A DNA stretch of 22,919 nucleotides from a virus. Under the pieces are notes generated by a model. It made no database searches and was not told the origin of the DNA. It was given only the letters and a program-made list of their open reading frames with translations. Position 1 is the stretch's first letter, and every line of letters starts with the position of its first letter. A program made the translations under genes and the position numbers. Positions 1 through 16,028 of the stretch are shown piece after piece. Location: IMG/VR virus record IMGVR_UViG_3300025674_000425, positions 1 to 22,919 of that record; one strand, 5' to 3'.

Positions 1-1780
1 CGCCGCCGGTCCAGACCGGCTGCGCTGCTGGGCCAGGAGGCACCGATGCGCTTGGGCCTCGCGGTCCGCCCGTCAGCGGTGCCGTATTCGGACCACCCGT
101 GATGGGCTGCACCTTGCACGGGACTGATGGCTGCCCGCCTGTGCCGCCGCCTGTGCTTGGTCCAGAAGGTCCACCTGTCAGCGGTCCATGCGGTCCCGTT
201 GTGCCACCCGATGCGGGGCGATTAGGGAATCGCTTTGCGCCAGGATTGGGCGTGATAACCGGCGTGACAGTCGGCGTCGGCGGGACAACGTCCCCTGGTC
301 GTCGCGGCCTGCCGCCCGTGGTAGGACCACCACCACCGCTTGGTGGTCCTGTCGTAGGACCGCCACCGCCACCACCGCCACCACCACCACCGCCGCCACC
401 ACCACCGCCGCCGCCACCACCACCGCCGCCGCCCGCAGGCACCGAGTAGGTCGGACCCTGCGTTGGCGGCGTGATGTCCGGCGACTCTGCATACCAGCGC
501 CACAGGCCGGGCTTCTGCTCGCCACGGAATCCGTGGCTGCTTGCCGCGTCGTAGCTCAACCAGACGCGCGCCACCTCTGGCAGCGCATCGGGAGATGGGT
601 AGCCGCCGCCGAACTCGAGCGGCGCGTCGCGCGTGCTGTTGTCGTAGAAGTAGGCCCCGGTAGAGATGTGCGCCGCGTTGATCGGGTGCCCGTCGCGGTC
701 GGTGCCGTGCCTGTGCTTGTCTGCGTTGCTGCCTGCGTGCAGCGGACCCTGCCCGCCGATGGCTGACATGAGCGCGACCGCGTGCCCGCCGACAAGGTTG
801 GGACCAAACTGCCCGAACTCCTTGGGCTGCTTCTCGTCCTCGCCTGCCTCTACCTCTGCACCGAACGCACCGCCGCCGACCTGCAAGGTGCCGAACGTGC
901 TGCGAGCTGGTCCGTCCTGACCGCTAGGCACGCCCGTCGTCGGGCCTGTGATCGGACCGCTGCCCGTGGTCGGACTGCCTGCGCCGCCGCCAGTCGTCGG
1001 GCCTGACGGCGCACCGCCGCCGCCAGTCTGCGCAAAGAAGGCTCCGAAGTTGGGGATGCCATCCTTGCCGCTGGTCGTGAAGTTGAGCGCAAGCGTGTTG
1101 CCCGGCGAGCCCAGGCGCGCAAACGATGTGCCCGGCGCAACCGCGATGACGCGAACAAGCGACTGCAAGCGCGCATGGCGACCGCCGATGCCCGGCGTGT
1201 CGCTGCCGTCCATGCAGAGCTCGCGGTCTGGCCCAAGGTCGACGACAAGCGTGCCGCATTCGCCCGGCCCGCCTGCGTTGGGAGCGATCAGGCGCGGGTC
1301 TGCCCACATGGCGACCGCGTGCTGGCCAGACTCCTCGGTGCCCGGCATGACCGTCAGCAGCGCGCCTCGAGGCACGCGCTGCATCCCAGCAGGCCACGCA
1401 GCATCCAGCGGGCGGAAGCGGTTGTCGTTGATGAATGCGCTGTCGCGGATGGGCTGCGAGTTGATCTTGGCGTAGTAGGGGTCCGCGTCGACCGCCATCG
1501 AGGCAAACGCCTGCGCCCATGAACCCATGCCGCGCACCGCGCGCTCGCGGGTCTGCCAGAACATCCACGGGTGCACGTCGCCGAGCGTGCCCAGACCGTG
1601 CTCGCGCCCGTAGCGGATCAACGCCTCGTCCGCGTTCTCGGCGTCGCCGGGGTCCGTCATCTGGATGATGCGGCCAGCCGCGAGCATCATGCGCCGCGAG
1701 ATAGGCGTGCCGTCCTGTGCCGCCGCATGGTCTTGCAGCGGGAAGAAGCCGAGATCGGTGAAGTCGGTGAAGCTCGTCAT
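1..1780 (-). CDS. Gly/Pro-rich tail-tip or adhesin-like protein (partial, runs off left edge)
   Basis: The reading frame starts at ATG 1780, overlapping the stop of the upstream gene as ATGA, and stays open for 593 codons to the left edge, so the C-terminus is missing. Residues 1-250 look like an ordinary globular domain with no family I recognise. Residues about 252-288 form a low-complexity linker rich in GPTTG-type motifs. A second globular segment (about 289-445) holds a His-rich stretch, KHRHGTDRDGHPINAAH. Residues 450-474 are 25 consecutive glycines, followed by more Gly/Pro/Thr/Ser-rich sequence with repeated GGP, PLTGG and GPTTG motifs to the edge. Its place after the hub-like gene suggests a tail-tip, fibre or receptor-binding protein; that role is inferred. 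Polyglycine-II folds are known in T-even gp38-type adhesins, but I cannot show homology. It could instead be a collagen-like virion protein. Confidence 0.8.
   Translation of the reverse strand, partial: MTSFTDFTDLGFFPLQDHAAAQDGTPISRRMMLAAGRIIQMTDPGDAENADEALIRYGREHGLGTLGDVHPWMFWQTRERAVRGMGSWAQAFASMAVDADPYYAKINSQPIRDSAFINDNRFRPLDAAWPAGMQRVPRGALLTVMPGTEESGQHAVAMWADPRLIAPNAGGPGECGTLVVDLGPDRELCMDGSDTPGIGGRHARLQSLVRVIAVAPGTSFARLGSPGNTLALNFTTSGKDGIPNFGAFFAQTGGGGAPSGPTTGGGAGSPTTGSGPITGPTTGVPSGQDGPARSTFGTLQVGGGAFGAEVEAGEDEKQPKEFGQFGPNLVGGHAVALMSAIGGQGPLHAGSNADKHRHGTDRDGHPINAAHISTGAYFYDNSTRDAPLEFGGGYPSPDALPEVARVWLSYDAASSHGFRGEQKPGLWRWYAESPDITPPTQGPTYSVPAGGGGGGGGGGGGGGGGGGGGGGGGGPTTGPPSGGGGPTTGGRPRRPGDVVPPTPTVTPVITPNPGAKRFPNRPASGGTTGPHGPLTGGPSGPSTGGGTGGQPSVPCKVQPITGGPNTAPLTGGPRGPSASVPPGPAAQPVWTGG
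323..350. repeat. 9-bp inverted repeat beside the poly-Gly tract
   Basis: AGGACCACC at 323-331 is the exact reverse complement of GGTGGTCCT at 342-350, with a 10-base spacer. It lies inside the coding region for GPPSGGGGP-type sequence, so it may simply result from Gly (GGN) and Pro (CCN) codons facing each other. There is no U-tract on either side, so it is not a terminator. Confidence 0.5.
359..433 (-). repeat. 25-codon poly-glycine tract (GGT/GGC repeat)
   Basis: Seventy-five bases read on the minus strand as 25 uninterrupted glycine codons, 14 GGT and 11 GGC, with no GGA or GGG. It encodes residues 450-474 of the Gly/Pro-rich tail protein and is bounded by an alanine codon (436-434) and a proline codon (358-356). 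Such a trinucleotide-like tract is prone to in-frame length change, but the mixed GGT/GGC order would reduce slippage compared with a pure repeat. Confidence 0.9.
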
Positions 1781-4005
1781 GCCTTGAACGGGACGATGCC
1801 GAGGATAAGTTGCCGCGCGCTTTCAGGCATCAGCGCATGACGGGGAATTGACCGCTGCTGGCCGGGGAACTCGTGCATCGCGTCGACGCGAGCCGTAGGT
1901 GCCGCCGACACGCGCAGCGTCGCGCTGGCCATGTTGCCGACGAGCTTGAGACCTTCACGCGGCAGGCTGGTGTTGATGATGCCCTGCACGTTGTCGGCGA
2001 ACGGTGCGATCACCTCGGCTGCAAGACTGCGCGCGTGCGGCAGGAGCTCGCGCTCCTCGTTGACCAGCGTGTAGCCGGGCAGCTCTTCAGGCTCCTCGCC
2101 GGGCTGGGGGTCGGTTAGCCCGAACAGCAGCTTCTGCGTGGAGAACGCCTCGCTGGCGTCGGTAATACCGAACCGAGCCGTGACCTCTCCAGGGCTGACG
2201 AAGACCTCAAGCGGCGGACCGTCGCCGTCTTGTATGCGGAACTCGCGCTGGAACAGGCTCTGGATCTCGCTGGACTCAACCTCGACCTGATGGAACTGCT
2301 GCCGGCTGTTCGGCGACGCCGGCACCGCCGTCATCAGCACCTTTGCCTCAAGCACGTCGTCCAAGTAGATGCCGTTGGTGCCGCCTTCCACAATCATGCC
2401 CGCGCCCATGGGCTGGTCTTCCTGCTGTGCAAGATCGCGCGAAGTGCTGATGCCGTCGTAGTTCTGATCGTTGACGAGCTTGCATGGCAAGAAGCTGTCC
2501 GTGATGCCGTAAGGGCTGACGATCCACTCCAGCCGAAAGATGCCGAGCTCCTCGTCCAAGATGTTGACGCGCTGCGGTCCGGGCCTTGTCTCGAGCAGCG
2601 GCGTGCCCTGCGTGTAGGGTCGCAGGTAGTCGACATTGCGCAGATACTTGCTGTCCTCGACGTTGTCGCTGCCGCGCTTGGCCATGAGCTGCCCCTTGGT
2701 GCTGGGCACGATGCAGCCTTGTCCCCAGACCGCTGCCGGTGCGCGCGCACCTGTGACCGGATCCAGTAGCGCGACGCGGATGGGGCGCAAGTTGCGGATG
2801 CGCTCCATGTATTTGCGGTTGAGCCTGAACGTCTGCCGGAAGTGCTGCCGGAAGGCTTGCAGGCGCATGGCTGCGTTGCCCTCGGGGTCAAGGTCTTTGC
2901 CTCGAACCCAGACCGCATCTAGGTCGCCCTTGAACCAGTGGATCTTGACCGTGTCCCATGTCCACGGCAGCGATCCCTCGGGCCGATCGGCGTCCATGGC
3001 CTCGAGCCACTTGTCCACGCGGACGTAGGTGCCCATCGGCACCGTCTTTGTCACTGTGCGGTTCTGGCCGGGGTCGAACTCGGTGATCTCGGTCTGCGGG
3101 TCCGTCGTGGGGATGACGTTGTCGACGTATGCATCGTTGGCGATGGGCTGCGCCGAAGTCTGGCCGCTGTAGTCGTCCTCGAACTCAACCAGCAGCTCGA
3201 TCTCTTTCTGGTAGTGCACGATGACCTTGCTCGGCCTGATGGCCTTGCGGTCGATCCATGCGCCACGCTCGCCCGCGTAGGTGCTGATGGGCAGGTTGCG
3301 GAAATGGTTCTCCGTCGCGTCAAGGTCGCTCGCGTCGAAGATGATCGTGCGGCCCTTCTCGTTGATGTAGAGCGCCGCTCCAGGGATGTAGCTGAGCAGC
3401 CGTTGCAGTGCGATGTCGCCGCTGTCGCGCAGCGTGACGCCTTGCAAGCTAAACTGCCCACTGTCGCCGACGCCGGTTGTGTCCTTTATCGGCCACGAGT
3501 CGACGGTCCAGTTGTCCTCATCGACAAGCTGTAGCACTGCCTCGAGCGCCGTCTGCGATGTCCACTTCGTGTTCTGCGGAGGCTGCAAGCTGTAGTTCAG
3601 GTAGTCGTATTGGTCGACGACCTGCTGCGTCTCGACGGGCACTGCTTGGCCTAGCGCCGTTCGATCGCCAGTCTTGCGCGGCATGTTGAAGTCGCGCACG
3701 ACCAGCTTGTAAGGCCAGAGCCACCGCTTGTCGGCGACCAAGAATGAGACACGGTGCGGACTGTCGCTCGGTGTGAGGTGCAGGATGTAGACCTGCTCGA
3801 TTGTGGTTTTGACGTCTCGGCTGTCCGTGATCTCGAGCGTCAGCGGTTTGCCGAGCCTGCCCTTGAGACGGTCCCATCGCGTGCGGTGCACGCTCATGAC
3901 CGTCGTGTAGGGCGCGACGCCGCTGATGAATCGCCACGCGATGCCACTGGTCGCGGCGAGCTCGACGCCGCCCAGCTTGACGATGGGATTCTTCGCCTCA
4001 GGCAT
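1777..4005 (-). CDS. Tail-hub / tail-associated structural protein
   Basis: A 742-residue protein starting at ATG 4005, three bases after the stop of the upstream tail gene. No signal peptide or membrane segment is visible. The N-terminal 120 residues (beginning with IVKLGGVEL, then PLTLEITDSRD) have the beta-rich look of the first domain of siphophage Tal or myophage hub proteins. The middle is long and mixed alpha/beta, and the C-terminal 100 residues are again beta-rich. It is the largest complete gene in the window and lies between a Dit-like gene and the Gly/Pro-rich tip protein, the usual place for the baseplate hub or tail-associated protein. The role rests on position and general look; I see no lysozyme or peptidase motif. 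It ends with an ATGA overlap with the next gene. Confidence 0.75.
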   Translation of the reverse strand: MPEAKNPIVKLGGVELAATSGIAWRFISGVAPYTTVMSVHRTRWDRLKGRLGKPLTLEITDSRDVKTTIEQVYILHLTPSDSPHRVSFLVADKRWLWPYKLVVRDFNMPRKTGDRTALGQAVPVETQQVVDQYDYLNYSLQPPQNTKWTSQTALEAVLQLVDEDNWTVDSWPIKDTTGVGDSGQFSLQGVTLRDSGDIALQRLLSYIPGAALYINEKGRTIIFDASDLDATENHFRNLPISTYAGERGAWIDRKAIRPSKVIVHYQKEIELLVEFEDDYSGQTSAQPIANDAYVDNVIPTTDPQTEITEFDPGQNRTVTKTVPMGTYVRVDKWLEAMDADRPEGSLPWTWDTVKIHWFKGDLDAVWVRGKDLDPEGNAAMRLQAFRQHFRQTFRLNRKYMERIRNLRPIRVALLDPVTGARAPAAVWGQGCIVPSTKGQLMAKRGSDNVEDSKYLRNVDYLRPYTQGTPLLETRPGPQRVNILDEELGIFRLEWIVSPYGITDSFLPCKLVNDQNYDGISTSRDLAQQEDQPMGAGMIVEGGTNGIYLDDVLEAKVLMTAVPASPNSRQQFHQVEVESSEIQSLFQREFRIQDGDGPPLEVFVSPGEVTARFGITDASEAFSTQKLLFGLTDPQPGEEPEELPGYTLVNEERELLPHARSLAAEVIAPFADNVQGIINTSLPREGLKLVGNMASATLRVSAAPTARVDAMHEFPGQQRSIPRHALMPESARQLILGIVPFKA

Positions 4006-4008
4006 TGG

Positions 4009-5463
4009 TTATGCCTGCCCCGTTGTTGGAGCCGTTTGAATCGGCACGAAGGTCCGGTCGCCGGGCTTGGCGTTGTAGCGTTCGGTCACGCTCTCGGTCA
4101 GCACGGTGACCGTGATGAACTCCTGGCCGGCTGGATCACCTAGCACGCGCGGTGTCACTTGGCTCGTGCTGGCTACGACGTTCCAGCCATACTGCTCGAC
4201 CTTGGTCGTGTCTCGCTGGTCTGGTCCCTTCTGGCCGAGGATCGTGCCATCCAATCTGCCGATCGGCCCATCTGGTCGGGCGCGCTCGCGGATGCGCAGC
4301 TTAGGAGCCTCGGCCCCGATGCCGATGGCTGTCCGGTTCCAGATGCGCTCCAGCACGCCGAAGCCCACGTCAGCAAACGCTGCCAGCTCGTCGCCGCTGT
4401 GCGTGGGCGTGTAGTCGATGCTGCGCGTCTCGCGGAACGCCACGCTCTGCGAGACCTCAACAAGCGACTCGCCGCCGCTAGGCTGAAAGATGAACTGCAG
4501 CGTGATGCTGATGCGCTTCGCGGTCTCGTCGTAGCTGACGCGCTCCTCCTCGACGCCGAAGACCGTGGGCTGGAAGTTGTTCTGGAAGAGTTGCCGGACG
4601 TGGCCCTTGATCTTGTTTCGGTAGACGCTCTCGAGGTCGGTGGTCTCGTCGATGTCGACGGCGCAGTCGTAGTTGCCTATGACTCGTTGCAGCCGCGTGA
4701 CCTCCTCGGTCGCGTCGCCGGGGTATTGGTTGACGTTGGTGAACGTGACACGGTGGTCGCGGATCTGGCCATCATCGAGAGCTGCCTGCGTCTGGTTGAC
4801 CAGCAGCTCGACATATTGCCGCGTGAAGTTGAGCACATGCGGAGCGGGCGTTGCGCCGCCCTCGCGGTCGAGCGTGAAGCTCTCGTCGACCAGCTCAAAC
4901 GTCGCGCCGCTGTCGATGACGTCGAGGTAGTCGTTGCAGCGGTTGTCGGCGTCGGCCTCGTAACGCGCCTTAGCGTCGCCTGCGCTGGTGGCTGTGTAGG
5001 TGCCGCGCATACTGACCACGCGCTGCCGGCCAGACTCGAAGTCGACGAGCACCTCGATGTCACGTAAGCCTGCGTCAGTCGTGTCATCGGCGGGTAGCTC
5101 GCCCTCGATGGTGATCGTGTAGCCACGGCTTGCGCCACGGTCGAGGTCGATGTTGCCGCTCTTGGCGATCGACGCTCGCGCTCGCAGCATCGTCTCGCCC
5201 ACGGTGTAGGTCCATGCGTTGCCGTCGAGGTCGATCTCCAGCGTGTCGCCGTCGACCAGACGCTTGCGGAACTCCTGCTCAAGCGTCTCGCTGCTGCTCT
5301 GCAATCCTGCGAGATCCTCAGCGACGACCACGACGTCGACGACCAGTCGGATGCTGTCGTAGCTCTTGTCAAGGATGTAAGGCCCGACGATCTGGTAGAC
5401 GTCCGACGTGCCGCCGATGGCCTGCGTGCCGTAGGTGATCTCGATGGGGTTGTTGATCGCCAT
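4009..5463 (-). CDS. Distal-tail / baseplate-like structural protein
   Basis: A 484-residue protein from ATG 5463, two bases after the preceding stop. It has no signal peptide, membrane segment or catalytic motif. The sequence is strongly beta-rich, and two segments look alike: about residues 115-172 (ITIEGELPAD ... TATSAGDAKARY) and about 317-366 (ISITLQFIFQP ... TPTHSGDELAAF), suggesting an internal duplication of a structural domain. Lying directly before the hub-like gene and after the short tape-measure candidates, it takes the place of Dit or another baseplate ring protein. This is inferred from order; a tail-sheath role is not excluded, but I do not see a sheath signature. Confidence 0.7.
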   Translation of the reverse strand: MAINNPIEITYGTQAIGGTSDVYQIVGPYILDKSYDSIRLVVDVVVVAEDLAGLQSSSETLEQEFRKRLVDGDTLEIDLDGNAWTYTVGETMLRARASIAKSGNIDLDRGASRGYTITIEGELPADDTTDAGLRDIEVLVDFESGRQRVVSMRGTYTATSAGDAKARYEADADNRCNDYLDVIDSGATFELVDESFTLDREGGATPAPHVLNFTRQYVELLVNQTQAALDDGQIRDHRVTFTNVNQYPGDATEEVTRLQRVIGNYDCAVDIDETTDLESVYRNKIKGHVRQLFQNNFQPTVFGVEEERVSYDETAKRISITLQFIFQPSGGESLVEVSQSVAFRETRSIDYTPTHSGDELAAFADVGFGVLERIWNRTAIGIGAEAPKLRIRERARPDGPIGRLDGTILGQKGPDQRDTTKVEQYGWNVVASTSQVTPRVLGDPAGQEFITVTVLTESVTERYNAKPGDRTFVPIQTAPTTGQA

Positions 5464-5465
5464 GG

Positions 5466-6038
5466 CTACTTGCTCTCGCTGAACGGGTTGATTGCGTCGA
5501 CCAGTCGCGTCATCGCTTCGCTAACCATCTTGCCGAAGCCACTCATGATGCGGTCGATGATCTTCTCGATGCCCGGCCCACGCATCTGCGTGTCGGTCTC
5601 AAACAGCTCGCGGCCTCGCTCCTCGTCCATGCGCAGGCTCTTGATGCTGTTGTAGAACTGACGCGCCTCGGGCGGGATCTCGTTGCGAGCTCCAGCAATT
5701 GCCCCGAATGCCTGGATCGTCTCCTCGCGGGCACGACGAGAAGCTCGAGCGTCTTCGTTGAGCGTGCCGAGGAACATCTCCTCCAGCATCTTGCCCGTCG
5801 CTCCGAGCGACTCGCCGACGACGTCGCCGACGCCGCTCTCCGTCGCACCTCGCACAGCACTGATCCCTGTGCCGATTGCCGTGCCCAGACCGACCGCGCC
5901 GAGGCCCTTTCCGACGACGCTGCGGATGTTGTTGGTCAGCTTGCCGGCGCTGCGCGCGGATTCGCGAACCAGACCCGATAGCTGGCTCTTGGCCTGCCGC
6001 GTGTCGAGCCGCACTTTGACCTTCGTTTCCTGTGCCAT
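5466..6038 (-). CDS. Short tape-measure-like tail protein
   Basis: The upstream Met of the open frame (6134) would overlap the previous gene by about 100 bp. The better start is ATG 6038, sharing one base with the upstream TAA stop (TAATG), giving 190 residues starting MAQETKVKVRLDTRQAKSQL. That opening, followed by a Gly/Ala-rich stretch (about 41-82, with GLGAVGLGTAIGTG), resembles the N-terminus of phage tape-measure proteins. The C-terminal half is charged and probably helical. Tape measures normally have 600 to over 1500 residues, so this is very short. It lies right before the Dit/hub-like genes, the canonical tape-measure place. It could instead be a minor tail assembly protein. Confidence 0.65.
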   Translation of the reverse strand: MAQETKVKVRLDTRQAKSQLSGLVRESARSAGKLTNNIRSVVGKGLGAVGLGTAIGTGISAVRGATESGVGDVVGESLGATGKMLEEMFLGTLNEDARASRRAREETIQAFGAIAGARNEIPPEARQFYNSIKSLRMDEERGRELFETDTQMRGPGIEKIIDRIMSGFGKMVSEAMTRLVDAINPFSESK

Positions 6039-6787
6039 TAGCGCCCCATCCTCTTCTTGCCGTCGCGCATCTGGTGCCGCACCGCCTTCTGGATGAACCG
6101 ATCCATCAAGTCGTCGCCGCCCTGTGCCTTCCACGCCTTCTGGAAAGCCTGCTGCGCTCTCAGGATGAGCATGTCGAACGTGCCGTTGACTCCAAACTCG
6201 CGCTCGATCAGAGACTTGCCGTCCTCGTATTGCTTCTCGACCCGGAACAGATCCTGCGCGATGCGGTTCATCTGCATGTTTTGCTTGCCGCTCTGACTGC
6301 GAATGCGAGCCATCAGTGGGTCCGCTTGGAAGCGGTGGCGCACGCTCATCTTGGCGCGCGCCGCCTCATCCATGTCGCCGAGGATCATGTTGTTCATCTC
6401 GTCGCCCATCTGCTCAAACGTCTTGCCGCTACCAAGACGCAGCGCGACGATGCCGCCCGCGATCAACGCCAGCGCAATGACGCCTGCGGGGTGACGCGCC
6501 AACATCTGGCCACCCTTCTGCACTGCCTTGCCCGCCAGACCGCTCGCGCCGCGTGCCAGACCTGCGCGACCCAAGCGTGCAATCTGCGTCGCACGTTGAC
6601 CGCTAGCTGCGCTGCGCAGTCGTATCTGTCGGCGACGCATTTGCCGCAGCAGCCGCAGGCGTCGCAGCACGCCGCCCTTGCGATTCGCTTGGTCCAGGCG
6701 GCGATCATCTCGAGCACGCGCGCGCGCGGTCGGCTGCTGCTGCGGCCCCAGCGTAGGCCGGAAGATCATGTCGTCGCGGAGCGTCAT
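6038..6787 (-). CDS. Arg-rich protein with one membrane-like segment, tail module
   Basis: A 249-residue protein from ATG 6787, overlapping the previous stop as ATGA. Residues 21-80 are extremely basic (for example LRRLRLLRQMRRRQIRLR at 41-58). They are followed by a single hydrophobic segment at about 101-118 (AGVIALALIAGGIVALRL). The C-terminal half (120-249) is charged and probably helical. I recognise no family. A hydrophobic segment and long helices are typical of tape-measure proteins, so this may be one part of a tape measure divided over two genes, or a small protein delivered with the DNA into the host membrane. The arginine-rich part could contact DNA. All roles are inferred from composition and location. 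Confidence 0.65.
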   Translation of the reverse strand: MTLRDDMIFRPTLGPQQQPTARARARDDRRLDQANRKGGVLRRLRLLRQMRRRQIRLRSAASGQRATQIARLGRAGLARGASGLAGKAVQKGGQMLARHPAGVIALALIAGGIVALRLGSGKTFEQMGDEMNNMILGDMDEAARAKMSVRHRFQADPLMARIRSQSGKQNMQMNRIAQDLFRVEKQYEDGKSLIEREFGVNGTFDMLILRAQQAFQKAWKAQGGDDLMDRFIQKAVRHQMRDGKKRMGR

Positions 6788-7566
6788 GTGGCCAGATAGC
6801 TCCCAACCTCGACTGCGCTGTATTCGTGAACACCAGTCAGACCAGTTGTGTTGAACTTGGCAAAGACGTGGTAGGTGCTGCCATCGACGGGCGTGTGCGT
6901 CGCTGTATCGTCGGTGTCTGCGTAGACTGCGGTGACGTCATCGACCGACGTGGCGGGCGTAGCTCCCGCCTTGTATCCCAGAACGTATCCCGCAAAGTCA
7001 TAGCGCCCTGACAATGCTTCGCCTTGCCATGACCAGCTTGATCCAGACCTAGCAAGCTGCTGCGGCGCGGGGAAGTGCGGCTGCGACGTGCACAGAGCCT
7101 CGACGGTGTATTCGTCAAAGACGACCTGCCGCCCGCGCCCTAGCGTGCTCGGGCTGCCGACGCCGCTGCCCGTGACGATGATGCTAGCTCCGTCGTAGGT
7201 CGTCAGGTTCTGGATCGCGTAGCGCACTCGCTCTGCGACCTGAGCGATGCCCGCGCCGCTGCTGCGCGATGCCGACGACCTCGAGCCGCCAATGACAGCC
7301 TGCTCGCCGAGCGGATCGCCTGCGACCTCTACCGCGACGACGACGTTGAACGTCTGCTGGATGAGCTCGGGGTGGTCCTCGTCGGGCGTGCCCGTGCCGA
7401 TGGTCACAAGGCAGAACGGGAACTGCGGCGGGTGCTCCTCGTCGCTCGGCGGTGCTCCAGCGTAGACGTAGACGCTGCGTGTGCCGAAGACCGGGTTCGT
7501 CGATCCGTCCCATGTCACCTGGGCCAGCTCGTGCTTGAGCTGCTGCGCCATCTGCCACGGGTTCAT
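6784..7566 (-). CDS. Tail-terminator-like protein with C-terminal beta-sandwich extension
   Basis: The open frame begins at 7590, but ATG 7566 overlaps the upstream stop as ATGA and gives MNPWQMAQQLKHELAQ, the better start; the product has 260 residues. Residues 1-160 have the pattern of tail terminator proteins (gpU/gp17 type): an N-terminal helix, a strand with PPQFPFCLVTIG, a central strand VVVAVEVAGD, a helix AERVRYAIQNL, and a final strand VVFDEYTVEALCTS. Residues about 163-258 form a separate Thr/Ser/Val-rich module (W-x-G near 180, TPVDGSTYHVFA at 225-236) resembling an Fn3/Ig-like fold. Terminators are usually about 130-160 residues long, so the extension is extra. The assignment is by pattern, not by search. 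Confidence 0.65.
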   Translation of the reverse strand: MNPWQMAQQLKHELAQVTWDGSTNPVFGTRSVYVYAGAPPSDEEHPPQFPFCLVTIGTGTPDEDHPELIQQTFNVVVAVEVAGDPLGEQAVIGGSRSSASRSSGAGIAQVAERVRYAIQNLTTYDGASIIVTGSGVGSPSTLGRGRQVVFDEYTVEALCTSQPHFPAPQQLARSGSSWSWQGEALSGRYDFAGYVLGYKAGATPATSVDDVTAVYADTDDTATHTPVDGSTYHVFAKFNTTGLTGVHEYSAVEVGSYLAT

Positions 7567-7982
7567 GCTTGCTGCGCCTCCACGCCCCACAGGGTCGGCC
7601 CTGCCGCCTTGTTTTCCTCAGTCGTGCGTCTCTCGCCGAATCCTGACATCGTGCGCTGTGTGCGCGCTCGCGGCGGCTCCTGCGGCTGCTGCATCTGCAT
7701 GAGCTTTGACGCGAAGCCCTGCGCCATCTTCATCGCTAGCGTCGCCTCGGCCTCGTCGTCGCCTTGCAAGGCAGACATGCCGGCGTCGGCGGCCTCGGGA
7801 TCGCGGATGGCGTAGCCGCAGGCTACGACGAAGTCCTGCGCGTGAGCGTCGCCGAGCATCGCGAGCTGCTCCTGCTCGACCTGGGATAGCCGCAGGAACC
7901 ACTCGAACGGCGGGCGCTGCGCGCGCAGCCAACGCTCGTAGGCTTCATTCGTGAGGTCCGGCAGGCGCTTCTTTGAGAACAT
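7563..7982 (-). CDS. Possible tail assembly chaperone
   Basis: A 139-residue protein from ATG 7982, nine bases after the previous stop and ending in an ATGA overlap with the next gene. It is mostly helical: aromatic-rich N-terminus (NEAYERWLRAQRPPFEWFLRL), an acidic middle, then a Gln/Met-rich helix (KLMQMQQPQ) and a flexible charged tail. It lies just after the probable tube gene, where tail assembly chaperones (gpG/gpGT type) normally sit. I did not find a clear slippery heptamer leading into another frame. The function is inferred from position only. Confidence 0.55.
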   Translation of the reverse strand: MFSKKRLPDLTNEAYERWLRAQRPPFEWFLRLSQVEQEQLAMLGDAHAQDFVVACGYAIRDPEAADAGMSALQGDDEAEATLAMKMAQGFASKLMQMQQPQEPPRARTQRTMSGFGERRTTEENKAAGPTLWGVEAQQA

Positions 7983-7991
7983 GGCAGCATT

Positions 7992-8552
7992 CTATGACAG
8001 GGACAAGTCGGCGAGCCTGCCGACCTCGAGGATGTTGCCGCTGCTGTTGCGCACGCATTCGACCGCGATGGGCAAGCCGAGCTCTTCCTGCCGTTGGAAC
8101 GCGAGCTCGGCATTCTCCGACCAATCGGGGATGCCCTCGTAGATCAGGACTGCTGGATTGCTGACCGGATCGTCGGGCACGTAGAGCATCGACACAGCGC
8201 GCGACAGCGCCGAAGCGCCCGCGACGCGGTTGCCGGGCTCGCGAAGCAGGCTGTGACCCGTGACGCTTCCCTGCACAAAGTTGCTTGAGAAGAACTGCTG
8301 GATCGCGTCATCGTCCCATGCCCGGATGAAGCAGGTGAACACGTAGCGCGACGTGCGCTCGAGGACGTCGCTGGCCTCGTTGCCTAAGCCCTCGCACTCG
8401 ATGCGGACGCTGGTGTTGAAGCTGGTCAGCACGACGAGCTTGGTCTTGCCGACCTCGATGCCGCCGTAGGGGAACTCGACGGTCAGATCGGTGGGATTGA
8501 TGACCAGCCGCCCTGGAGCGCGCAAGACCTTGGACACGTTGCCGCTTGCCAT
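7992..8552 (-). CDS. Probable tail tube / major tail protein
   Basis: A 186-residue protein; ATG 8552 shares one base with the upstream TAA (TAATG). The sequence is beta-rich with an N-terminal pattern, LVINPTDLTVEFPYGGIEVG, of the kind seen in tube proteins that describe a strand-turn-strand leading into the tube barrel. No signal peptide, membrane segment or catalytic residues are visible. It lies directly after the gpG-like gene and before the probable chaperone, the usual place of the tube protein. Size also fits (tubes are commonly 130-250 residues). A second possibility is a head-tail joining protein. Confidence 0.6.
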   Translation of the reverse strand: MASGNVSKVLRAPGRLVINPTDLTVEFPYGGIEVGKTKLVVLTSFNTSVRIECEGLGNEASDVLERTSRYVFTCFIRAWDDDAIQQFFSSNFVQGSVTGHSLLREPGNRVAGASALSRAVSMLYVPDDPVSNPAVLIYEGIPDWSENAELAFQRQEELGLPIAVECVRNSSGNILEVGRLADLSLS

Positions 8553-9139
8553 TACCTGCCAACCTCCATGATCCGAACGCCGATGGTCTGGCGGATGTCT
8601 TTGCGGGTCTTAGTCGTGATGCCGACGAACTGACGTTTCGGCACGCGCATCTCGAGCTGCTGATCTCGAGCATGATCACCAAGCAACCAGCCAAGACGCT
8701 CCTGCAAGTCCTCGCTCTGCTTGGCGAGCCACTTGCCGATTCTCTGCTGCACCGTCAGCGTGATCTTCTCGCTCTTGCTGACGCCGCCGAAGTTGTGCAG
8801 CGACGCATACGGCACCGTCGTTCCGACCTCGACGACCTTGCCCTTGACCGCGAACGCGATGCTGTTGGCCAGACGCCCGGTATCACGCAGCGCCGGACGA
8901 CGCTCAAACCTCCGAGCGGGCGGCTTGCGGCGGCCCTGGGCGAAGTCGCTGATGATGCCGAAGACGTTGATGGGACTGCGCTCGCGCCACGCCTTGCGCC
9001 CGAATCGCTGCTCCTTGAACGACGCCTGCGACTCGGCGACCATCATCACGCCGATCTGCTTGAGCGCCTTGGCTGGGTTGTCCAGGTTCTTGTTGACCCG
9101 CCGCAGCTTCGCGCCCTGCTCGAACGTGACGCGCGACAT
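8552..9139 (-). CDS. Mu gpG-like virion morphogenesis / tail completion protein
   Basis: A 195-residue protein from ATG 9139, three bases after the upstream stop. It shows features of the phage virion-morphogenesis/tail-completion family (Mu gpG, P2 gpS type): a basic N-terminal helical part, RPALRDTGRLANSIAF near residues 81-96, then VEVGTTVPYASLHNFGG at about 104-120, and near the C-terminus VPKRQFVGIT. In relatives this protein finishes the tail or head-tail joint so that DNA is retained and the tail attaches. Length is close to family norms. With the gpT-like capsid and MuF-like gene it supports a Mu-related structural block. Confidence 0.85.
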   Translation of the reverse strand: MSRVTFEQGAKLRRVNKNLDNPAKALKQIGVMMVAESQASFKEQRFGRKAWRERSPINVFGIISDFAQGRRKPPARRFERRPALRDTGRLANSIAFAVKGKVVEVGTTVPYASLHNFGGVSKSEKITLTVQQRIGKWLAKQSEDLQERLGWLLGDHARDQQLEMRVPKRQFVGITTKTRKDIRQTIGVRIMEVGR

Positions 9140-9142
9140 GGC

Positions 9143-10450
9143 CTAGTCCTGCCCCGTGTCGTAGCCGCTCGGCATGTAGCCGGCGGGCAGGTTCTTGCGG
9201 TCGCTCCAGCCGTATTGCGTTCCGCTCTCGGTGCTGGTAGTCGTGCCGCTGTTGCTCTTGGGTCCGGCGTGTCCGCGCGCATCTGTTCGGCGGACCTTCT
9301 GGATCATCCCGTCCGGTCCCCAGACCTGATCCCACTTGACCTCCTCGATGGCCGAGCTGGCACCGCCGCGCCGCCACAGCACTGAGATCAGTCCGACCGC
9401 GCCGACTTCTAGGTGCAGCGCATCCGTCGCATCAAAGTCGTTCTGCGCGTAAGCAGGCCACAGGGCGATGACCGCGTCTGCTGCTGAGATGCCCGCCGAG
9501 TCGTTGACGGTTGTGGCCGAGCGATCTCGGATGTTGGTGAGAGTCACCAGTCCGTCGACGTCATACGCGCTCTGCACGTATTCCCAGAGCTCTGCTGCGG
9601 CAGCCGGTTCAGCCGGCGGGTCGGGGTCGATGGGCTGCACTGCGTCAAGCGCAGCATCCATGCGCTCGCCCATCGTGATGGTCGAAGCCGGACTCAGATG
9701 GATCTGATCTGTGGCTTTGGACAGATCGTCGATGTCGACAGCTACGAGGTAGGGGTCAGCAGCCGCTCGAGCAGCGATGGCTGCGCGCACCTTGGTCACC
9801 TCCGCTGGTATCGAGACGTCCGTGCCAAGTTGCGGTGATACCCAGACGACCGGCGTTGTGCTGCCGCCGTAGCTGGCTCGCAGGTCGGTCACAAACTGCT
9901 CGATGGCATCCGCAAACAGGTCGCCGCCGCCCGCCACAGCCATGTCGTTCGTGCCCAGCGCGACAAAGATTGCCTGCACTTCGCCTAGCGTTGGCGGCGT
10001 GCTGCTGATCGCTGTTAGCGCCGCGTTGACGTCCGTTTGGAACTCATCCCAGTTTTCTCCGCTTACCGACTTGGCCCAACGTCCTGCGCTGTAGACCGGG
10101 TTGCCGACCCAGCCCGTGCCCTCTGCGATAAGCGTGGCGCTGACGGATGAACGCTTGACCAGCACGACGCCGTCTGTGGTATGGCGTGCTGCCAGCTTGG
10201 CGATCAGGCTGAACTCTGGACCAGCGCCAGTATAGGGCGAGGGCGGGATGCGCGTGCCGCCGCCATGGCTGTTTGTATGCGCGATGTAGTTCTCGATAGC
10301 CTGATCTTCGTAGTCCCAGATCCGCTGCAAGGAGCCACGGTCCCCCGTCGTGTAGACCGGGTCTGCTAGCGCAGTGGTGTAGGCTGATGTCAGAAAGCTG
10401 GCCAGCGTCAGGCTATCGCCAAGCAACAGGTAGACAGGCTGCGTCGCCAT
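9143..10450 (-). CDS. SGNH/GDSL-family esterase with non-catalytic C-terminal domain
   Basis: A 435-residue protein with no signal peptide. The N-terminal 270 residues form an SGNH hydrolase: block I LLLGDSLTL with nucleophile Ser13, block III ALGTNDM with Gly166 and Asn168, and block V ATDQIHLSP with catalytic Asp248 and His251. The following TMGERM fits sialate/carbohydrate acetylesterases, so a likely reaction is removing acetyl groups from a surface glycan. After a Pro/Ala hinge (275-285), residues 287-435 form a separate domain with a helical pattern (LWEYVQSAY, ISAADAVIALWPAYA) that recalls head-tail connector proteins of the Mu gp36/DUF1320 kind; this is tentative. I see no Shine-Dalgarno sequence in the 20 A/C-rich bases before the ATG. 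It lies between capsid and tail genes, so it is probably a virion component. The substrate is unknown. Confidence 0.85.
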   Translation of the reverse strand: MATQPVYLLLGDSLTLASFLTSAYTTALADPVYTTGDRGSLQRIWDYEDQAIENYIAHTNSHGGGTRIPPSPYTGAGPEFSLIAKLAARHTTDGVVLVKRSSVSATLIAEGTGWVGNPVYSAGRWAKSVSGENWDEFQTDVNAALTAISSTPPTLGEVQAIFVALGTNDMAVAGGGDLFADAIEQFVTDLRASYGGSTTPVVWVSPQLGTDVSIPAEVTKVRAAIAARAAADPYLVAVDIDDLSKATDQIHLSPASTITMGERMDAALDAVQPIDPDPPAEPAAAAELWEYVQSAYDVDGLVTLTNIRDRSATTVNDSAGISAADAVIALWPAYAQNDFDATDALHLEVGAVGLISVLWRRGGASSAIEEVKWDQVWGPDGMIQKVRRTDARGHAGPKSNSGTTTSTESGTQYGWSDRKNLPAGYMPSGYDTGQD

Positions 10451-13631: not shown

Positions 13632-14120
13632 TCAGGCGGTCGCCTGAGCCAGGAACTCGGCTGTCGTGAACAGCGTGACATCGACATCCGTGGCCGAGCG
13701 GAAGCCGCTGAGGAAGCCGACCGGGTGGTCGGCGACGCCGCCAGCGGTCGCGTCAAGCGTGAGGTCGTCGGTGTTGCTGGTCGTCGCGTAGACGATGTCG
13801 CCGACCTTGGCAGCCGTCGGCGTGCCGCCGACGCTGTCGAGGCCGAGCAGCGTGACGCCGCTGTCATCGACGCGCGCCTCAGGCACCGGGGTCGCGCTGG
13901 TGTCGCCCGTGAGAGCCGCGCCGGGCGAGACGCCGAGCGCGTCGCCGAGCACGATGCCCACGAACACGTCGTTCGCGCCGTCGGCCCAGTGGTTCAAGTA
14001 GCCGCCTTCCAGGCCGACCAGCGCGCCCTCAAAGAGCGTGACGCCGTCGGCGATCGGGTAGGCGCTGCGACCGCTGCGCGTCTTCGTCGCGAGCGTCTTG
14101 CGTGCAGTGACATCTGCCAT
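13632..14120 (-). CDS. Capsid decoration-type protein
   Basis: A 162-residue, Gly/Ala/Val/Thr/Asp-rich, acidic, beta-rich protein from ATG 14120 with GAGGA about nine bases upstream. It contains short beta segments such as GVTLFEGALVGLEGGYL and VFVGIVLGDALG that resemble DUF2190-type and other phage head decoration/stabilising proteins, which trimerise on the capsid surface. It lies between the protease/scaffold and the major capsid protein, the canonical location (as lambda gpD). I see no catalytic motif or membrane segment. The family assignment is by pattern and position. Confidence 0.75.
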   Translation of the reverse strand: MADVTARKTLATKTRSGRSAYPIADGVTLFEGALVGLEGGYLNHWADGANDVFVGIVLGDALGVSPGAALTGDTSATPVPEARVDDSGVTLLGLDSVGGTPTAAKVGDIVYATTSNTDDLTLDATAGGVADHPVGFLSGFRSATDVDVTLFTTAEFLAQATA

Positions 14121-14149
14121 CTTTCAGTCCTCGTCCGTGTCGGGGTGGG

Positions 14150-14887
14150 TTAGGCGTCGGCCGCGAAGCCAGCGCGTTGCATGTTGACGGCGACGTAGCG
14201 GTCTTCGCTCATGCGAGTCGCGCCGTGCCTCATGAGCTCCGCGTGCTCGCGGGCGAACTGCGCAGCGCGCTCGACGGCGTCGGTGCCCTGCTCGGTGTAG
14301 TTCAGCGCGATGCCGGGCGTCTTGTTGGCCTGCGCCGCGAACGCGACCGCAGCCGTGTCGCTGTGGCTGAGAGCGCCGAACGTCTGGGCCATGCTGTCGA
14401 CGTAGTCCTTGAACGCAGCCGCGCCGTGCGCCTTGTGGTAGGCGGTCAGCTTGGCCTCGAGGTCGCTGCCGAGCGGCCGGTCTTCCAGGCGCTTCATCGC
14501 CGCGCCGACATCGTCCTTGCGCTTATCGAGCGCGTCCCGCTCGTCGAGCCGCGCCTTGAGCGCGACGTTCTCGCCTTCCAGCTTGCTCATGCGCCTCATC
14601 GCCTCGCCGGGCACCTGCGCCTGCGCGGGCTCCATCGCGTCGCCCTTCTCCTCCATGGCCTCGGTGGCGTCGGCGACGATCATCGCGAGCTGCTCCATGT
14701 CGAACTGGCCAGCCTTGATGGCTTCGCAGACGGCCTCCGCACTCATGCCGTCCTGCATCTTCTCGTCGGAGTCCTCCGACTCCTCGGCCATCTCTTCCTT
14801 CTTCTCGGGGTTGTCGCCCATCTTCTCCTCGTCCTCGTCGTAGGCGAACGAAGCGGCGGCGGCCTTGTCGTCGATCTTGGTGGTCAT
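14150..14887 (-). CDS. Nested scaffold protein from internal start (Mu gpZ / lambda Nu3-like)
   Basis: In the same frame as the protease gene, ATG 14887 (residue 210) starts MTTKIDDKAAAASF, just where the protease linker ends and the acidic scaffold begins. AGGACGAG is centred about ten bases before this ATG, a plausible ribosome binding site. The 245-residue product would be a scaffold alone, made in excess over the fusion, as Z in Mu and Nu3 in lambda. The start is inferred from the domain boundary and the ribosome-binding site. Confidence 0.6.
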   Translation of the reverse strand: MTTKIDDKAAAASFAYDEDEEKMGDNPEKKEEMAEESEDSDEKMQDGMSAEAVCEAIKAGQFDMEQLAMIVADATEAMEEKGDAMEPAQAQVPGEAMRRMSKLEGENVALKARLDERDALDKRKDDVGAAMKRLEDRPLGSDLEAKLTAYHKAHGAAAFKDYVDSMAQTFGALSHSDTAAVAFAAQANKTPGIALNYTEQGTDAVERAAQFAREHAELMRHGATRMSEDRYVAVNMQRAGFAADA

Positions 14888-15514
14888 GGTGAGCTCGTCC
14901 TGCGTGAGTAGGTGCGCGGAATGCCCGCGCCGGAAGCACGCTACCACGCCATCCTCGGCATGTGTGGCTTGTGCAAGGTAGGGGTTGGCGAAAGTCGCAG
15001 ATGCGACGCGCACCGTCTGGCCGCTGGTGGGCACGTTGAGCGTGCTCGGCTCCTCGACGTCCGCGACCATGAGCATCGGCAGCTCAAGGTATGGCGGCTC
15101 GTGATCCAGTAGCGCGAGGCTGTCGATCGCAGGCTTGTCGACGTTGAAGATCTCGACGCTGCGGTATGGCAGGCGAGCTGCCAGCACGTCTTCCTCAACC
15201 CACGGTCGGGTGATGACGAGGTCGGCGAAGATGGCTGTGCGCGTCTTGCCCTTGAAGGTGATCGGCCCCGTGCGCGTGATCTTGAAGAATCCCGCCGGCT
15301 CGGGCACCGGCCCGTCGTCGTGGTGCCGGATGTGCAGCGGCGGCAGGTAGCCCTCGGTCGCCGCTTGCTTGGCCTTGGCTACTGCCGTTTGGATCCAGTC
15401 TGCGTTGAAGCAGACATCGCCACGCTCGCACTCGACGAAGATCGGCACGTCGTGGATCGTTAGATGGCCCTGCGTGTTGCGCGTAGCCCTGTATCCCTGC
15501 ACGGTTTGCGTCAC
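14150..15514 (-). CDS. Prohead protease-scaffold fusion (Mu gpI-like)
   Basis: The open frame extends to 15583, but GTG 15514 overlaps the upstream stop as GTGA and has AGAGGTG six bases before, so it is the likely start, giving 454 residues. Residues 1-180 look like the Mu gpI/S78-type prohead serine protease: PLHIRHHDDG (His61, His64 or His65) and LPYRSVEIF with probable nucleophile Ser119. The exact catalytic residues need alignment. Residues about 210-454 are the scaffold: a strongly acidic stretch (YDEDEEKMGDNPEKKEEM region), then long helices (KLEGENVALKARLDERD) and a C-terminal domain. In Mu and lambda the protease cleaves scaffold and itself during head maturation. It precedes the decoration and capsid genes. 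Confidence 0.85.
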   Translation of the reverse strand: MTQTVQGYRATRNTQGHLTIHDVPIFVECERGDVCFNADWIQTAVAKAKQAATEGYLPPLHIRHHDDGPVPEPAGFFKITRTGPITFKGKTRTAIFADLVITRPWVEEDVLAARLPYRSVEIFNVDKPAIDSLALLDHEPPYLELPMLMVADVEEPSTLNVPTSGQTVRVASATFANPYLAQATHAEDGVVACFRRGHSAHLLTQDELTMTTKIDDKAAAASFAYDEDEEKMGDNPEKKEEMAEESEDSDEKMQDGMSAEAVCEAIKAGQFDMEQLAMIVADATEAMEEKGDAMEPAQAQVPGEAMRRMSKLEGENVALKARLDERDALDKRKDDVGAAMKRLEDRPLGSDLEAKLTAYHKAHGAAAFKDYVDSMAQTFGALSHSDTAAVAFAAQANKTPGIALNYTEQGTDAVERAAQFAREHAELMRHGATRMSEDRYVAVNMQRAGFAADA

Positions 15515-15837
15515 AGTCGCACCTCTTCGATCAGCAGGAAGTTGAGGACGATGCCGCCGCTTGTGCTCGTCTGGACGTTCCACGTTCTGCCGCTGTCCAG
15601 ATTGAACTCCTCGTATCGGAGATTGCCGGCGAGGTTGACTCCTCCAAAGATGCTAACGCCTGTGCCGCTATTAGGGATCAAGCGCAGGTTCATCGCGCCG
15701 CCCCACGCCGTGACACGGATGATGCTGTCGTCGTAGACCTTCTGAAAGTCGGACTCGAGGATGTCCGAGTTCTGCACCGTCGCGACGCTGGCGACGATCT
15801 TGACGTGCTGCTTGTGGAAGTAGGGAGCGGTGCTCAT
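15511..15837 (-). CDS. Small beta-rich protein of unknown function, head module
   Basis: A 108-residue protein from ATG 15837 (ATGA overlap with the HTH gene), ending in GTGA overlap with the protease gene. It has no Cys, no signal peptide and no membrane segment. It consists of alternating short strands (HVKIVASVATVQN; MNLRLIPNSGTGVSIFGG; GGIVLNFLLIEEVRL) typical of a small beta-barrel or fibre-like domain. I do not recognise the family. Translational coupling on both sides implies it is made in stoichiometry with the head proteins; a minor capsid or decoration role is possible. Confidence 0.7.
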   Translation of the reverse strand: MSTAPYFHKQHVKIVASVATVQNSDILESDFQKVYDDSIIRVTAWGGAMNLRLIPNSGTGVSIFGGVNLAGNLRYEEFNLDSGRTWNVQTSTSGGIVLNFLLIEEVRL

Positions 15838-16028
15838 GGCTTCTCGTGTTGTTTGACGATTCTGGTGATGGCAGCACGCATCGCGTGCGTCGGTTGTTGT
15901 GTGTCGCCTCGGATTAGCCGGTAGACCGTAGCATGGTGCGCTGGCAGCTCCTTGGCAATCCGCCTGACGCCCATGGTCGCGGCGATGCGGCGGAACTTGG
16001 CCTGCGTGTTGCTCCAGTCCTCGCGCAC
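15834..16028 (-). CDS. 64-residue helix-turn-helix protein in head operon
   Basis: GTG 16028 shares one base with the preceding TAG stop, and GAGGA lies four bases upstream, so this start is well supported. The 64-residue basic protein has a probable HTH at residues 17-43: an A-T-M-G-V-R-R-I-A-K-E-L helix, a turn, then the recognition-like helix ATVYRLIRGDTQQP and a final helix. The G-D-x-x-x-P ending is typical of Cro/Xre-YdaS-type folds. It may be a small repressor or DNA-binding accessory, but its place among coupled head genes suggests it is made late. The function is inferred from the HTH pattern. Confidence 0.75.
   Translation of the reverse strand: MREDWSNTQAKFRRIAATMGVRRIAKELPAHHATVYRLIRGDTQQPTHAMRAAITRIVKQHEKP

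Follow-up and report, generated by a model that had tools for sequence, protein, structure and literature searches.

The two short proteins, of 249 and 190 residues, that are encoded side by side in the tail module of this virus are probably tape-measure-type proteins of the inner tail of a siphovirus-like phage, and their gene appears to have been duplicated within the clade. This is the best reading of the sequence comparisons, as suggested by the matches of the N-terminal regions with tail-protein families and by the position of the genes. In the textbook mechanism, the length of the tail is set by a single long ruler protein, and ordinary tape measures are usually encoded by single long genes, located at the same place of the tail module as the short genes of this clade. 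The preliminary description had proposed a tube-tailed phage having two short proteins instead of a long tape measure, and this is confirmed by the analysis of the window (the whole stretch of DNA that was analysed, being an IMG/VR virus record of 22,919 bases and probably a fragment, or incomplete virus contig) and of its relatives, in which the arrangement is conserved.

The structural genes of the window are all on the minus strand. The head module and the gene of a gpG-type tail completion protein are followed by the genes of proteins of 186, 139, and 268 residues, which are upstream of the pair of short genes, and downstream of the pair are found the genes of proteins of 484 and 742 residues and then a long gene that is cut by the end of the contig. 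The tail genes, in this order, are:

8552–9139, minus strand: tail completion or neck protein (Mu gpG/Phage_tail_S), matching Pfam PF05069 (E 3.8e-13) and phrog_26 (E 2.6e-17)
7992–8552, minus strand: major tail tube protein (186 residues), from its AlphaFold model and structure searches
7563–7982, minus strand: probable tail-assembly chaperone (139 residues), small and variable, named from position and conservation only
6784–7590, minus strand: putative tail-terminator-like protein having an additional domain at its C terminus, from its conservation in relatives, its position, and weak matching to phrog_123
6038–6787, minus strand: Arg-rich 249-residue paralogue, from its ORF, hydrophobicity, hhalign comparison with the 190-residue family, and junction
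5466–6038, minus strand: 190-residue tape-measure-type protein, from its ORF, phrog_1204 match, conservation, and paralogy
4009–5463, minus strand: putative distal-tail-like protein (484 residues), from its position; conserved in relatives
1777–4005, minus strand: putative tail hub-like protein (742 residues), from its position; conserved in relatives
1–1780, minus strand: putative fibre/adhesin-like protein, cut by the contig end; its full-length relatives have 838–1353 residues

The two short ORFs have exactly the lengths and positions reported before. The pair is located between the tube and chaperone genes on one side and the distal-tail and hub genes on the other side, the tube being assigned by its fold and the distal-tail and hub proteins by their position; however, the gene directly upstream of the 249-residue gene is not the tube gene (7992–8552) but the terminator-like gene (6784–7590). 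When searched by sequence against Pfam, PHROG, and profiles of solved structures, none of the genes between positions 4009 and 8552 is named, except for the weak match of the 190-residue protein. The 249- and 190-residue proteins have no match in Pfam, the 484- and 742-residue proteins have no family match in Pfam or PHROG, and the matches of the tube, terminator, distal-tail, hub, and 249-residue families with the profiles of solved structures are at chance level or absent. One of the 22 members of the terminator-like family matches phrog_123 (“tail terminator”), at an E-value of only 0.09, and the fibre/adhesin-like protein matches repeat families or unknown ones, and only weakly.

The tube protein is recognized by its predicted structure. 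The AlphaFold model of the 186-residue protein, obtained with 20 relatives in the alignment, has a pLDDT of 75 and a pTM of 0.75 (with a 9-sequence alignment the tube fold is too poor for use). When this model is compared by Foldseek with the PDB, phage tail tube proteins are the best matches (E 2.4e-4, probability 1.00), and in BFVD many “major tail protein” entries are found (E 7e-6 to 1e-3). The VIA Z value is 9.6 (131 residues, 3.9 Å) for the comparison with the neck/tube chain of phage Chi, with the tube proteins of Bxb1, YSD1, and other phages close behind. By the fold of this model, the virus is a tube-tailed phage. No contractile-sheath Pfam family is found among the tail genes scanned, which together with the position of the genes suggests that the phage is probably a siphovirus.

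Relatives were gathered by scanning 2.9 million viral contigs with the 484-residue protein, the 190-residue protein, the alignment of the latter, and hub alignments. This yielded 37 related IMG/VR contigs, a few of them being near-identical pairs, which belong to a spread-out group of phages of roughly 41–50 kb. The arrangement is kept, in nearly all of the relatives whose contigs cover it, down to a hub identity of about 27% (apart from the gene of the 190-residue type in L078 and the precise start of the 249-residue-type gene in L028), and both genes are kept with similar sizes in relatives down to about 36–49% identity. These sizes are tightly conserved across the clade, with 180–206 residues for the 190-residue type and 210–288 residues for the 249-residue type. 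Four relatives (G004, 47.9 kb; G009, 43.1 kb; G010, 44.7 kb; G012, 41.4 kb) are taken as circular and complete because their ends are direct repeats of 94–127 bases. The preliminary description had asked whether the complete genome encodes a long tape measure at another place; none is recognisable in these four circular genomes (41–48 kb), and none is located in the tail module at the place of the tape measure. Their long ORFs are fibre-like (838–1353 residues), hub, DNA polymerase A, AAA_25 protein, terminase, portal, and SGNH-like genes and antisense frames; outside the tail module there are a few further long ORFs, which have no family match. Truncation or misassembly as the cause of the missing tape measure is ruled out by the 37 related contigs and the four complete circular genomes, and an assembly frameshift that splits one gene is ruled out by the conservation of the sizes across independent contigs. 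Cultured relatives are not found among 50,697 phage records by the hub, capsid, and 190-residue proteins, the short tape-measure-type proteins of the relatives having only chance-level matches with these records, nor are prophages or hosts found in the GTDB genomes by the hub and capsid profiles.

The tape-measure-like N terminus that had been noticed in the 190-residue protein is found as a weak likeness, in which residues 1–73 match phrog_1204 (“tail protein”, 1483 positions) with an E-value of 9e-4. In the family of the 190-residue type (alignment of 34 sequences), phrog_1204 is matched by the N-terminal KVxVxLDTxxAKxxL region in 8 of the 34 members, with a best E-value of 1.4e-5, and the “tape measure” families phrog_167 and phrog_8927 are matched with E-values of 0.006–0.008. 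In the family of the 249-residue type (25 sequences), single members match tape-measure PHROGs weakly (E 0.02 and 0.075). The best PDB profile match of the 190-residue family is the HFTV1 tape measure (PDB entry 9h4p), concerning the same N-terminal stretch, at a nonsignificant E-value of 0.2. The tape-measure-type matches are all confined to the first ~70–100 residues and are weak, often nonsignificant, such that the similarity of the short proteins to ordinary tape-measure and tail proteins (PHROGs 1204, 167, 8927, and 1293) is a weak similarity of the N-terminal region.

The 249-residue protein is indeed Arg-rich with one membrane-like segment, having 50 Lys and Arg residues versus 23 Asp and Glu residues and a single strong hydrophobic, transmembrane-like segment at residues 101–119 (KD 2.11). 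The 190-residue protein consists of the N-terminal motif KVRLDTRQAKxxL, a weaker Gly/Ala-rich hydrophobic segment (residues 41–59), and a C-terminal domain that is common with the 249-residue protein. Across the clade, the hydrophobic segment is clear in the 249-residue family (KD 1.2–2.8), of which the N-terminal half is basic, and it is weak and Gly-rich in the 190-residue family. A hydrophobic or transmembrane segment for DNA delivery is common in tape measures, without being universal.

By profile comparison, the 249- and 190-residue proteins are paralogues. The two families (25 and 34 sequences, respectively) are aligned by hhalign with a probability of 98.2% and an E-value of 5.3e-14 over 108 columns, the common region being located after the hydrophobic segment and including the LGDxDExARA and ExGRxxIExDxxF motifs. 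This link first appeared with eight sequences per family, and the profile of the 190-residue family alone gives a further match where the 249-residue gene is located, in five virus records (E 1e-6 to 1e-7). The earlier suggestion of a tape measure split over two genes has to be rephrased: the two short proteins are paralogues with a common C-terminal domain, rather than being the N-terminal half and the C-terminal half of one ruler, and the number of copies per genome is 1 to 3.

In the window, the 249- and 190-residue genes overlap by one base (TAATG), and the junctions in the clade are mostly stop/start overlaps of 1 or 4 bases; in L006 and L010, an in-frame stop is directly followed by ATG, and there are gaps of 3–8 bases in L012, L039, and L049. 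The overlapping junctions, with their in-frame or gapped exceptions, indicate at the level of the sequence that the two genes are translationally coupled and argue against their fusion by frameshifting.

Most clade members carry two or three paralogues. A third tandem copy, of the 190-residue type, is found in eight distinct relatives (L040, L042, L043, L048, L049, L050, L051, and L059), and in the hub tree, from which L059 was left out and of which the root is uncertain, six of the three-copy genomes form a supported clade, with which L049 is not resolved. A single gene is present at this locus in the two most distant relatives, encoding proteins of 256 (L060) and 265 residues (L081). These two proteins are mutually related (BLASTP E 1e-5) and have at most the N-terminal ~40 residues in common with the 190-residue family (domain E 0.008–0.055, the search being scaled to 100 sequences).

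These observations bear on the possibility that the 190-residue protein alone is the tape measure and that its 249-residue paralogue is an ejection or membrane-penetration protein, or a DNA-contacting plug, which is released with the tape measure. Such a division of labour would be in agreement with the tape-measure-like N terminus being clearest in the 190-residue family and with the 249-residue family having the strong transmembrane segment as well as an N-terminal half that is basic, but it is rather unlikely, as the two genes are nearly always together, with a common domain and translational coupling, and as both jobs must fall to one gene where distant relatives have a single copy.

L030 (9163–10376) and L054 (5348–7986) have the two genes in reversed order, and in L054 the gene corresponding to the 484-residue protein is placed before the tape-measure-type genes, which points to local rearrangement within a tail module that is conserved. 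The reversed order, and the presence of the C-terminal domain in every copy, argue against subunits that are arranged in series, with a summed length (439 residues in the window, ~600 residues in three-copy relatives) setting a short tail of ordinary length. The two or three tandem genes do total 400–640 residues, which is close to the shortest ordinary tape measures; nevertheless, side-by-side paralogues fit the common domain better than consecutive segments, and the end-to-end arrangement is improbable.

It is quite improbable that the two proteins are holin-like or other nonvirion membrane proteins and that no protein ruler determines the length of the tail. Such a reading would be compatible with the membrane segment, with the basic character, and with the fact that no curated tape-measure family is matched significantly, but the place of the genes inside the tail module, between the tube and hub-like genes, is kept across deep divergence, and the N-terminal regions match tail families. 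The joining of both genes into a protein of ~439 residues by frameshifting or stop-codon readthrough, for which the one-base overlap in the window might speak, is extremely improbable and is rejected on the comparison of the junctions, given their variety, the swapped order in two relatives, and, in the window, the lack of a slippery heptamer close to the junction.

The preferred reading, that of short tape-measure-type proteins, predicts a short tail by the rule of 1.5 Å per residue, according to which the subunits of the window would cover no more than 28 and 37 nm when placed side by side and ~66 nm when placed end to end. From the sequence, a miniature tail is probably the correct reading of the tail length, and the inner rod probably contains subunits of more than one kind. 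One ancestral short gene may have been duplicated, giving two genes of which the proteins would be made in coupled amounts and would lie together in the lumen of a short tail tube. The subunits would co-assemble on the hub, and the tube would polymerise around them and stop at the terminator, such that the two proteins would fix the tube length in assembly, as a ruler. At infection, the subunits would exit from the tube, and their hydrophobic segments, strong in the 249-residue type, may enter the host membrane and aid the passage of the DNA.

Short tape measures are known from other systems. The tape measure g11 (Rcc01694) of RcGTA has ~219 residues (113 + 83 + 20 residues described) and forms a trimer in the channel of a noncontractile tail of 49 nm with five tube hexamers (PMC7296036). 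It is similar, when compared by length and architecture as described, in being a short tape measure in a very short tail (PMC7296036), and it differs in being encoded by one gene and in its helix-strand-helix layout. The tape measure gp40 of the haloarchaeal virus HFTV1 (PDB entries 9h4p and 9h7v) has 341 residues; the tail is 56 nm long, with 11 hexamers in its tube, and gp40 forms a hexamer in which two C-terminal conformations alternate (PMC12494034). Its likeness to the clade proteins is its shortness and the N-terminal match mentioned above, whereas it is longer, has an archaeal host, and provides both conformers from one gene. A tail “built in a new way”, as had been considered, is therefore not needed for explaining the short length (PMC7296036, PMC12494034). 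In a roseophage with RcGTA-like tail parts, the tape measure is long, with a predicted helix of 517 residues (PMC10276861).

Short tape measures being already known, a ruler that is divided among two or three genes that are paralogues is not met in the literature searched, of which the coverage is incomplete. In podoviruses, several small proteins with membrane segments, being ejection or internal virion proteins and tail needles, are encoded near the tail genes; podoviruses, however, have no stacked tail tube, and the clade described here encodes a tube-fold protein in the window and in its relatives. A kinship between tape measures and needles has been proposed for RcGTA (PMC7296036).

By analogy with HFTV1, it is possible, as a tentative proposal, that the ruler of the clade is a hetero-oligomer in which two or three paralogous short subunits from separate genes are packed in one short tube, the conformers of HFTV1 coming instead from one polypeptide. 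More speculatively, the two paralogues could supply two conformers that adapt the sixfold tube to a threefold hub. A lineage having only rulers of 180–290 residues, with one to three paralogues per genome, provides natural experiments on whether the copy number affects the tail length or just the inner-rod symmetry. Such a lineage would rank among the smallest tape-measure systems in phage genomes of normal size (41–48 kb), being comparable to a gene transfer agent.

Several further features are observed. The terminator-like gene is placed downstream of the tube gene, unlike its usual upstream place, and the extra C-terminal domain of its protein (~90 residues, conserved in the clade) is possibly Ig/FN3-like, as judged by eye. 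The 435-residue gene at 9143–10450 is fusion-like, having an SGNH/SASA esterase-like N-terminal domain (Pfam E 2.5e-8) and a C-terminal domain of ~150 residues that is a stand-alone protein of 154–158 residues in most relatives, where separate SGNH-like genes of 650–690 residues are also present. In L038, a frame of 713 residues (13863–16004) downstream of the fibre gene has a second match with the tube profile (E 8e-72), possibly being a second copy of the tube protein, and in the window the truncated fibre-like gene encodes a long poly-Gly stretch at positions 300–450.
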